A stretch of DNA of 33,879 bases, taken from contig CP070697.1 in NCBI GenBank assembly GCA_020353555.1, positions 3,850,283 through 3,884,161 of the forward strand. The letters run 5' to 3'. Both the position numbers and the translations under genes were made by a program. Source of the DNA: Desulfobacterales bacterium (GTDB taxonomy: Bacteria; Desulfobacterota; Desulfobacteria; Desulfobacterales; G020353555). The notes beneath the pieces are model-generated. The model saw nothing but the letters and a program-made list of their open reading frames with translations, did no database searches and had not been told where the DNA came from. Positions 6,729 through 11,677 of this stretch are shown here, piece after piece; the first letter of the stretch is position 1, and every line of letters begins with the position of its first letter.

Positions 6729-6993
6729 TTAAACGGGAAGGAGGACTTTAAATGTGCTCCCTTTGCCTTCGCCGTCACTCTCCGCCCAGATTGTGCCGCC
6801 GTGAAGCTTTACGAGCTCTTTGCTCAGGGAGAGCCCCAACCCGGTCCCTTGATATCGACGACCGGCGGAAGCCTCCACCTGCTCGAAAGGCGTGAAGATC
6901 CTCTGCAGATCTTCTCTCTTCATCCCGATCCCATTGTCACGGACAACGATCTGCACGAAATTGCCGTTTTGCATTTTCGCATTCTTGCCGTCA
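6729..6993 (-). pseudogene. Detached ATP-binding end of the histidine kinase
   Basis: This stretch encodes the missing C-terminal half of a HATPase_c domain in a different frame from the kinase upstream. DNGIG (G1 box), IFTPFEQ (F box), GTGLGLS (G2 box) and the standard end GGTIWAESDGEGKGSTFKVLLPV are all present. The frames join exactly if the C8 tract at 6994-7001 is read as C7: the joined peptide runs ...SAPPDGKNAKMQNGNF..., giving one 672-residue kinase from 8748 to 6729. An internal ATG at 6974 could only yield an 81-residue fragment without the N box. It is therefore a frameshifted part, the off state of a switchable gene, or a sequencing error, rather than an independent gene. Confidence 0.85.
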
Positions 6994-8748
6994 GGGGGGG
7001 GCTGATACCGGATACGGGAGATGGGAAACGCGCGCGGCCTTCAGCGTGATTTGTCCCCCCTCCGGAGTGAACTTCACGGCGTTGGACAGCAGGTTGTACA
7101 GCACCTGCTTCAACTTGCGCTCGTCGGCCCGGAGCGTCCCCGGAAGCGTGTCGTCAATTTCCGCTTCCAGGCGTATGCGGTGCTTGAGGACCTTCTCCGT
7201 CACCATGCCGAGACAGCCCTCCAGCAAGGTTCGCAGGTCCACATCCGTTGGATGCAACTCCAGTTTTCCGGCCTCCACCTTGGATAGATCGAGGATGTCG
7301 TTGATCAGGGAGAGCAGGTGCCGGCTGCTCTGGAGCACATCGTGCAGGTACTCTTCCTGGATTGCGGTCAGATCGCCGCAATGCCTGTCTATGATTAACT
7401 CGGTAAAGCCGATGATGTGATTGAGGGGTGTCCTCAACTCGTGGCTCATGTTGGCCAGAAATTCGCTTTTCGCAGAATTGGCCTTTTCCGCGGCATCCTT
7501 GGCGCGTCGGAGTTCCTCCTCTTTTAGGATGCTGGCCTTGATTAAATCATCAAACTCCCACTTGATGAGTTCCAAGGCCTCAAATACGGGGCGAAAAGGA
7601 TGGGAAGCGGTGTTCACTTTTTTGTCGCCCAATCCCTGATGATCCCAGTTGATTCCGTCCAGAAAAAGGAGCAGATCCTTGACGTATTGTTCGATTGGAT
7701 CGGCGGCCGGCGATTTCGGGGAGGCGTCGGCGAGGGTGGCGCGATGGGATTTGTTTTGGTTTTCGAAACCTTCCTTTGTAGTAATTTCCAAAGCCTGGGC
7801 GAGATCTTTAGCCAATCGGACCGGGAAAGGGATAAAGGGCCTCGATAGGTTAATGGCCGATCGAAATAAGCTGTTGGCGCCGTAGAAGACAAGCAATTTA
7901 AATGGATATTTGGCATAAAATTCCAGAATGGCGGATATATACAGTTTGCGCGCTTTCTGGGTAAAGCCTTTGGATTCGGAAAGCCCTAAAATATAGCCGT
8001 AGTCTCCCGGCGGCAGCATTGACCTGGCAATGTTCGCCTTCATCGTGAAGCAGGGATCGATATGCGCCTCTTTGAGCTTGCCGGTGGTCAGCCCATGGAG
8101 GATGCGACCGTTGATGATTTCATAGCGCAGCGAGAAATCTTCAATCTGTATAAACCACTCCGGTTTGGAGACAATGGCTGGCGGAGCGGGCTTATTCCCG
8201 GGATGCCGCTTTTGCGCCGGCTGAGCGGAGAAAGGCGGTTCATCAATAATTATTTTGTTGCGCTGCAGTAAATCCTGGGTGAATATGATTGCATCCTTGT
8301 AGTTGGCCGCAACTTCGACCCGCAAATCCAATCGGTGCAGTCTTTTCCCGATCCTGACGGCTAACTTGAGAAATGTGTTCAGCCCGTAAAAGATCAATCC
8401 CAGGAGTTGTTTTTGATTTTTGATATGGCGGGTATAGAGTTCCCTGGCCTCGCGCGAGGCGCCCTCAAGATTCGACCAATCCTCAATACGCGCGTAAAGA
8501 ATCCCTTCAGGAAAAAAAGATTCGCGGATGCTATTTTCGAAATTCAAGGCTTGTTCCAGCTCGGGGAATGTGGAGTACCCTGAGGTCGTAATGTGCAGAA
8601 TGTGTCTCCCGATCAGATCGTAGGTGACCTGGCAGCTTTTCCCAAAACGCACTTCGCGCCATTCAGGCTTGCTGAATAAGGGCCAGCCCGTCACAGGACA
8701 AACGCGGCCGGATGTGACGTTCACCTTTCTGATATCACTCGGCGCCAT
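6991..8748 (-). CDS. Soluble sensor histidine kinase with duplicated N-terminal domain, truncated by frameshift
   Basis: As written, the frame gives 585 residues: two related sensor domains, a coiled segment, a HisKA domain and the start of HATPase_c. HisKA has SEFLANMSHELRTPLNH with phosphoacceptor H436. The N box YNLLSNAVKFTPEGG (N552/N556) is present, but the protein then ends in ...PVSAPP at a TGA directly after C8. The G1, F and G2 boxes are in the next frame downstream. The sensor halves (about 26-163 and 194-325) share SKPEW starts, an 'I.GRILH..T.G' strand, an 'AR.LY' helix and an 'FYG.N...R.A' end. I do not recognise the domain; the pattern is loosely STAS-like. No signal peptide or membrane span is seen, so sensing is cytoplasmic. 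No response regulator is adjacent. A sigma-54-type promoter lies upstream. Confidence 0.88.
   Translation of the reverse strand: MAPSDIRKVNVTSGRVCPVTGWPLFSKPEWREVRFGKSCQVTYDLIGRHILHITTSGYSTFPELEQALNFENSIRESFFPEGILYARIEDWSNLEGASREARELYTRHIKNQKQLLGLIFYGLNTFLKLAVRIGKRLHRLDLRVEVAANYKDAIIFTQDLLQRNKIIIDEPPFSAQPAQKRHPGNKPAPPAIVSKPEWFIQIEDFSLRYEIINGRILHGLTTGKLKEAHIDPCFTMKANIARSMLPPGDYGYILGLSESKGFTQKARKLYISAILEFYAKYPFKLLVFYGANSLFRSAINLSRPFIPFPVRLAKDLAQALEITTKEGFENQNKSHRATLADASPKSPAADPIEQYVKDLLLFLDGINWDHQGLGDKKVNTASHPFRPVFEALELIKWEFDDLIKASILKEEELRRAKDAAEKANSAKSEFLANMSHELRTPLNHIIGFTELIIDRHCGDLTAIQEEYLHDVLQSSRHLLSLINDILDLSKVEAGKLELHPTDVDLRTLLEGCLGMVTEKVLKHRIRLEAEIDDTLPGTLRADERKLKQVLYNLLSNAVKFTPEGGQITLKAARVSHLPYPVSAPP
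6994..7001. repeat. Mononucleotide tract G8 (C8 on the coding strand) at the kinase frameshift
   Basis: Eight identical bases within the kinase coding sequence, immediately before the TGA that truncates it. Loss of one base, or gain of two, restores a full-length kinase. Such tracts are typical slipped-strand sites and also typical places for base-calling errors. Confidence 0.9.
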
Positions 8749-10171: not shown

Positions 10172-11677
10172 ATGCAGTTATGCGTGCAGCCTCAGGCCGG
10201 TAACGATTGCGACATCGATTGCGGGAGTCATGCGGTGAAGGATGATTTTTTTTCATGCCAATGTATTGTTGATACGGTCGACGGCTTACGCGATGGCCTC
10301 AGCCACTTTTCCGGTCCCAGCCGAGCCGCCGTGATTTATGCGCTCATGCCCGATGATCCCGTGCGCATCTACGATCCTCAAAACCTTCTGCAGGGGCATG
10401 AACCCAGATTCAAAGAACTCTATTTGGATTCCCAGAAATGGCGGAGCGAGGTGAGGGTTCCGCTGGACAAAAAGAACTTTGGCTATATGCGGCCCGAGAA
10501 AAATCTGCAGCTGGCGGGCCTCATCTCCTATGGCGGCCGTTCCGGTTCCGTTTTTTACCAGATGTGGTTTACGGAGCATCATCCGGATATGTGCTCGATC
10601 GGTCCGACGGAACGCTGGCTGGAACACGCGGCGTGGCGCTTTTCCCATGATATCGCCAATGAAAAAGAATTATACACAGGCATATCGGGTCACTTCCTCC
10701 GGGAATACGGGACCCATGCCGTGCGCGACCATATTATCGATGAAATGAATATGATCCTGGGATGGGATACGCATATTCGGGTGTATCCGATCCTGGACGC
10801 AATCTTGGCTATTTCGCGAACCCGCGAAGAGGGTGAATGGCCCGTGGGGGAGTTGCTTTTCGTCGAATCGCGTTCGCTGGCGAAATTGGAATTTGTTGCC
10901 CGATTTCCTGAGATGGAGCGACCCAACCTGGAAAATTACAAGCATGTGCGCAAACTCTTGCTGGCGGTGGAAGATTCCGCGCGCAAGTTGGTATCGGACG
11001 GCAAGACCATCGTGGGGATTGCGACCGGTGCGCTGCCGGAGTTTTGCATCCTGGCTGATTTCCGGGGAAGATACGGCTTTTTGGAATTGCAGAGCGGCCC
11101 GGTCTGCAGTTTTGCCGACGGCAGTTTCAAATCGACCACCCATAAAGCCAAATTGGTGCACATCGAAGAGGCCCTCCTGGAAGCGGATATGGACCCGGTG
11201 TCCGGCAATCGGCTGTTTAAAATAATCGCCAGTCTCGTCCATAACGCCGAAAACTCGGAACACGGGTGCACCCTCGTGATCGATCTCAATCATGAGCCGC
11301 TGATGATTTCCGGTCAAAAACTCGCTAGCCCTCTGGATCTTCAGCAACCGCACTTCTTGGAGCTAGCCCAATCGTTGTCGAAGGTGGACGGCGCCCTGCA
11401 TATCGGCGCCGACCTGAACCTGCATGGATTTGCCTGCTTGCTCGACGGCCGCGCCATCGCCGGGGAAGACCGCGCCCGGGGCGCACGATTTAATTCCGCC
11501 CTGCGATTTACCGCCGAGCACCAACAGGTCATTGTGGTGGTGGTTTCGTCTGATCGACCGGTGGCAATCATCCAGGAGGGAGTGGAATTGAGCGCCCAAT
11601 GTTACTGGAAGCCATACTCCACCTGCAGGGTCAGGCCACCCACATTGCAAGCGTGGATCGCCGCAGCGGACCCCTGA
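10172..11677 (+). CDS. Diadenylate-cyclase (DisA_N/DAC) domain protein with large uncharacterised N-terminal region
   Basis: A 501-residue soluble protein. Residues about 345-470 resemble the DisA_N nucleotidyltransferase fold that makes cyclic di-AMP from two ATP. The DGA motif is at 406-408 (KVDGALHI), followed by GRAIAGEDRARGAR and the strand VIVVVVSSDRPVAII. The second catalytic motif, RHR in DisA/CdaA, reads R439-F440-N441 (GARFNSALRF), so activity or nucleotide choice may differ. Residues 1-340 form an N-terminal region I cannot assign. It includes an ADFRGRYGFLEL...FADGSFKST stretch (about 295-322) just before the cyclase domain and is probably a sensor. The start is uncertain: the ATG has a GGGGG stretch rather far upstream, and Met59 is the next option. 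It stands alone between the flavoprotein and the TRAP operon. Confidence 0.72.
   Translation: MQLCVQPQAGNDCDIDCGSHAVKDDFFSCQCIVDTVDGLRDGLSHFSGPSRAAVIYALMPDDPVRIYDPQNLLQGHEPRFKELYLDSQKWRSEVRVPLDKKNFGYMRPEKNLQLAGLISYGGRSGSVFYQMWFTEHHPDMCSIGPTERWLEHAAWRFSHDIANEKELYTGISGHFLREYGTHAVRDHIIDEMNMILGWDTHIRVYPILDAILAISRTREEGEWPVGELLFVESRSLAKLEFVARFPEMERPNLENYKHVRKLLLAVEDSARKLVSDGKTIVGIATGALPEFCILADFRGRYGFLELQSGPVCSFADGSFKSTTHKAKLVHIEEALLEADMDPVSGNRLFKIIASLVHNAENSEHGCTLVIDLNHEPLMISGQKLASPLDLQQPHFLELAQSLSKVDGALHIGADLNLHGFACLLDGRAIAGEDRARGARFNSALRFTAEHQQVIVVVVSSDRPVAIIQEGVELSAQCYWKPYSTCRVRPPTLQAWIAAADP

Follow-up and report, generated by a model that had tools for sequence, protein, structure and literature searches.

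The window analysed here, a stretch of 33,879 nucleotides from the contig CP070697.1 of a Desulfobacterales bacterium, carries at 10172–11677 (+) a gene for a DACND-DACNH-DAC protein of 501 amino acids. The reading frame is open over the whole of this span, as an earlier note made from the letters alone had claimed, and the motifs DGA (residues 406–408) and R-F-N (439–441) read exactly as described there. Translation may instead begin at an alternative GTG start at 10235, which corresponds to residue 22, since residues 1–22 are modelled with pLDDT below 50 and are absent or unalignable in most orthologues. Pfam recognizes three domains, each against a cut-off of 27 bits and in the following order: DACND (PF21749; residues 27–198, 10250–10765, +; 287.8 bits, E 2.8e-86), DACNH (PF21750; residues 205–306, 10784–11089, +; 113.4 bits, E 6e-33) and DAC, or DisA_N (PF02457; residues 356–470, 11237–11581, +; 46.9 bits, E 2.4e-12). 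The last of these substantiates the DisA_N-type core proposed earlier, whereas the statement that about 340 unassigned residues precede it was wrong, because DACND and DACNH cover that region. Nor is the sensor region unknown sequence: both of its domains are named in Pfam, and DACND, DACNH and DAC are all present in the 23 members of the family scanned (23/23). The picture of a DAC-fold protein carrying a sensor region of its own at the N-terminus is thus borne out by the Pfam domains, the function of DACND and DACNH as sensors being predicted from the Pfam wording ("probable sensor"). The architecture was already known and the gene in the window is an ordinary member of the family; a search of the literature brought up no experimental work on DACND proteins.

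Between the DACNH and DAC domains lies a linker, CSFADGSF (residues 312–319; 11105–11128, +), identified in the orthologue alignment. In its general form, CSFxDGxF, residues C312, S313, F314, G317 and F319 are invariant, and the motif is confined to DACND proteins, being absent from the DACNG and other DACNH proteins compared. A redox or ligand role of C312 is possible.

The gene is flanked upstream by a gene of the FMN-reductase family and downstream by a TRAP transporter. It lies outside the cdaA-cdaR and disA-radA settings, as noted earlier, with no cdaR, glmM, disA or radA adjacent, and no Rfam family, riboswitches included, was found within the window. A conserved operon partner was sought and rejected, the commonest neighbour family occurring at 16 of about 80 loci and looking like a generic sensor protein. 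Elsewhere in the window, a histidine kinase gene at 6732–8748 (-) is split: HisKA and positions 2–31 of HATPase_c are encoded in the ORF 6991–8748, and positions 36–108 of HATPase_c in another frame at 6732–6974 (-), which indicates a frameshift. It may be a pseudogene or reflect a sequencing error.

Fold, motifs and conservation of the DAC domain

An AlphaFold model of the protein, built from 23 sequences, has a mean pLDDT of 86.4, with values of about 91–97 over most of residues 340–460. Searches of the PDB with the protein sequence gave nothing significant. At the level of structure, the earlier note had made its assignment depend on a match to DisA_N, and in a Foldseek search of the PDB the model did match CdaA, CdaM and DisA, with probability 1.00; the DisA structures matched were 3c1y and 9y4s, and the match to 2fb5 had an rmsd of 2.9 A over 155 alignment columns. 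The core therefore has the DAC fold. The N-terminal region modelled alone (pLDDT 77.8), as had also been proposed, had no PDB match with E below 0.1, and no known fold is claimed for the sensor part.

The motifs of the DAC domain are in part canonical and in part altered. DGA (11387–11395, +) is retained. In place of the canonical L-P-L stands L-D-G (residues 424–426; 11441–11449, +), in which D425 and G426 are invariant. The canonical GxRHRxA motif is absent, its position being taken by GARFNSA at 437–443, within RGARFNSALR (residues 436–445; 11477–11506, +), where R-F-N replaces RHR and R436 and R445 are additional invariant arginines. At the place of the S-E-E metal/phosphate motif lies S-S-D (residues 459–461; 11546–11554, +), with S459 and D461 invariant; if the inferred register holds, VSSD at the (V/I)SEE site keeps the serine and has aspartate for the second glutamate, so that the counterpart of the metal-binding E124 of CdaA would probably be an aspartate. 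Residues were mapped to Listeria monocytogenes CdaA from alignments, with contacts as given in PMC7288161. In CdaA numbering, R103 is kept, T102 becomes Ala, H104 becomes Phe or Tyr, and R105 becomes Asn. The first leucine of L-D-G aligns with L88, whose backbone contacts adenine (PMC7288161), and the adjoining P89 is Asp here. The change from LPL to LDG at this adenine-contacting loop may mean that the base differs.

Whether R-F-N is a variant shared by a subfamily, as the earlier note had asked, could be judged from a search with the DACND profile, which is independent of the motif. Of 395 genomes of the phylum, 24 proved to be carriers, the window's own among them, and R-[FY]-N is present in the window protein and in 22/22 complete orthologues. 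A set of 80 related loci, chosen partly by the motif, was left out of this statement. Motif decay is rejected on this result, and the suggestion that the motif change by itself hints at loss of function is not supported, given the same 22/22 and the fact that R-[FY]-N is common to the DS-2 DAC family as well. In the orthologues (47–63% identity) D406, G407, A408, D425, G426, R436, G437, A438, R439, N441, S442, R445, S459 and D461 are all invariant, most of them even against relatives with 16–20% identity, and R260 and K261 of DACNH are invariant out to the most distant relatives. Such invariance is the pattern expected for an active site under selection.

Comparison with known systems places the protein clearly. 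It shows no substantial difference from the DACND-DACNH-DAC family (PF21749, PF21750, PF02457), which is widespread in Desulfobacterota and with which it shares domain order, R-[FY]-N and a full-length alignment with common DAC motifs at 47–69% identity. CdaA (DacA) has the DAC fold, DGA and the first arginine of RHR in common with it, but differs in its membrane N-terminus, RHR, S-E-E and L-P-L at the base loop; the window protein has no Pfam match to the CdaA_N membrane region, and cdaR and glmM are not its neighbours. DisA likewise shares the DAC fold and DGA, but there an N-terminal DAC domain is followed by HhH, whereas here DAC is C-terminal, Pfam finds no HhH and radA is not nearby. DacZ-type archaeal and bacterial DACs resemble it in being soluble, in having a sensor-like domain before DAC and in their non-strict RHR (RHA, RHM), but have a PK_C-like N-terminal domain, retain the histidine and fall on a separate tree branch. 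Natural variation is seen at the third position of the motif, with RHA or RHM in DacZ-like proteins (L003, L141, L142); RHH stands for RHR in a CdaA-like branch (L133, L134, L136–L140).

The R-x-N branch and the DS-2 anti-phage systems

The motif extends well beyond the orthologues. A tblastn search against plasmids returned distant DACNH-type DACs in Priestia, Dyadobacter, Phycisphaera, Gluconobacter and Citrobacter, all of which have R-[FYL]-N, LDG and S-x-D. R-x-N is also common to DACNH-type DACs on prophages, and IMG/VR contigs yielded five more R-x-N DACs in a scan seeded with the motif; no relative was found in phage records. Tree building with 60 DAC domains put the R-x-N proteins to the same side of one branch (support 100/99), and this split persists without the motif columns, although long branches limit the reading of the internal order. 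Together, the 22/22 orthologues, the distant plasmid and prophage DACs and this support identify R-x-N as the signature of a clade, and neither decay nor a one-off change. The DACNH-DAC gene of a Priestia megaterium plasmid (L112, 1885–6163) adjoins genes for a DNA methyltransferase and a restriction endonuclease. Predicted viral contigs (L191, 1–1722 and 1800–2963; L192, 5161–7758) carry DACNG/DACNH-DAC genes with R-x-N; that on L191 adjoins an apparent integrase gene, and the protein on L192 has weak C-terminal TPR matches.

The Citrobacter plasmid protein and that of Gluconobacter score 803.8 and 712.2 bits, respectively, against the DS2_3_antiphage model (NCBIfam NF053872; cut-off 630), and both adjoin genes for a patatin phospholipase and a CD-NTase. 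According to the DefensePredictor report (PMC13092281), DS-2 is a trio of patatin, CD-NTase and DAC, and phage defence was lost when two residues of its DAC, predicted to be catalytic, were mutated. The third DS-2 protein (NF053872, DACNG-DACNH-DAC) shares with the window protein DACNH and DAC, DG[AT], LDG, RG[AS]RYNS, R and S-x-D. It differs in that DACNG rather than DACND comes first, in its longer C-terminus and in having DGT instead of DGA, and overall identity is 16–19%. The window protein has common descent with the DS-2 anti-phage DACs.

This kinship raises the question of whether the protein is itself an anti-phage component that, like the DS-2 DAC, works with CBASS. Its nearest tested relatives are CBASS-linked, and the DS2_3 model, run against the 395 genomes at E <= 1e-10, matched DACND-family carriers only and not canonical CdaA. 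However, the window protein scores 72.3 bits where the cut-off is 630. On plasmids the DS-2 gene adjoins patatin and CD-NTase genes, whereas the window gene has neither: no homologue of the two was found in the window flank or among the neighbours at the 80 related loci. No SMODS cyclase was matched in the window's genome, and just 5 of the 24 carriers have one. Finally, sequences from one host family cluster together in the gene tree, with the minimum number of changes, and this agreement with host taxonomy points to vertical descent, unlike the situation in the plasmid and prophage relatives. We therefore consider a defence role of this kind very unlikely.

Other DACs in the host genomes and the probable function

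The window's genome encodes three further DACs. One, a CdaA, is fused to YbbR (CdaR-like) repeats in a single chain of 481 residues (L001, 1147–2592); the other two are another CdaA-like protein and one of the PK_C-DAC type. The similar open-frame lengths of CdaA genes in many relatives (L122–L132) suggest that such CdaA-CdaR fusions are common in the phylum. Most carrier genomes have another DAC, canonical CdaA being usual. In a survey of 171 genomes of the order (completeness filter 95%, window's own genome included, motif checked), six genomes, of which two are single contigs, have the gene as their sole DAC, so it is kept where CdaA is absent, i.e. without a partner CdaA.

Of the c-di-AMP phosphodiesterases and receptors that the earlier note had proposed to look for, a PgpH-type phosphodiesterase is present in the window's genome, and no ydaO riboswitch was found there at the gathering score. 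PgpH was rejected as a sign of c-di-AMP, because the control failed. It occurs in 6/6 sole-DAC genomes, yet also in 18/20 genomes without a DAC, and thus says nothing on the product. The DAC-less genomes with a PgpH-type 7TMR-HDED protein include L185 and L187–L190, and in Desulfobacterales lacking a DAC at the threshold used this protein may have another substrate. DHHA1 proteins were likewise uninformative as a clue, being present in every genome tested.

We favour the reading that the gene encodes a soluble, stand-alone, ligand-regulated cyclic-dinucleotide synthase of the R-x-N branch of DACs, most likely making c-di-AMP, and give it a probability of about 0.58. DACND and DACNH would sense an intracellular signal and control the pairing of two DAC domains, as domain order and the general behaviour of DACs suggest, and the paired domains would condense a pair of nucleoside triphosphates, c-di-AMP from two ATP being the most likely outcome. 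D406 (of DGA), R439, S459 and D461 would be the catalytic residues, and N441, R436 and R445 would stand in for the missing histidine and arginine of RHR. That the active-site set is invariant speaks for a functional enzyme, and, in view of the DS-2 mutants (PMC13092281), catalysis in the R-x-N branch is likely. As for the product, c-di-AMP is the default because it is the main product of characterised DAC domains (PMC7288161). The three other DACs and the lack of a ydaO riboswitch in the window's genome count against this reading.

An objection to catalysis comes from Mycobacterium tuberculosis DisA, in which changing RHR to AAA abolished both ATP binding and activity (PMC3328451). If RHR is that essential, the DAC domain here could be a degenerate nucleotide-binding regulator that makes no product, and most carrier genomes do hold another DAC. 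That mutant, however, lost three residues, whereas R-x-N retains the first arginine, and an asparagine and two further arginines have been gained and are fixed. A degenerate domain also fits poorly with the invariance of DGA, R439, S459 and D461, with the retention of the gene as sole DAC in six genomes and with the need of the DS-2 relatives for catalytic residues in defence (PMC13092281), so that we regard it as improbable.

An active synthase with another product, such as a mixed or guanine-containing or a linear dinucleotide, is unlikely. It would imply that base and phosphate contacts changed together, and the replacement of LPL by LDG, that of RHR by R-x-N and the two new arginines are indeed fixed branch-wide rather than scattered. 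The change to LDG, moreover, is adjacent to the position at which L. monocytogenes CdaA touches adenine with its backbone (PMC7288161). It would also explain why canonical CdaA is usually present in the same genomes, and the DS-2 relatives act beside a CD-NTase, a second cyclase. Against it stand the six genomes that carry solely this DAC. In its broadest form, which we likewise hold to be unlikely, the R-x-N DACs would be a separate class of synthases with rebuilt base and phosphate pockets and a product other than c-di-AMP, used for stand-alone sensing in sulfate reducers and for CBASS-linked defence.

The R-x-N signature may already have been noted in earlier surveys of DAC architecture. 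Its significance is that, through R-F-N, the DS-2-type defence DACs of plasmids and prophages fall into one branch with stand-alone sensor DACs from Desulfobacterota, and knowing what a chromosomal member makes would give a hint of the product of the defence relatives.
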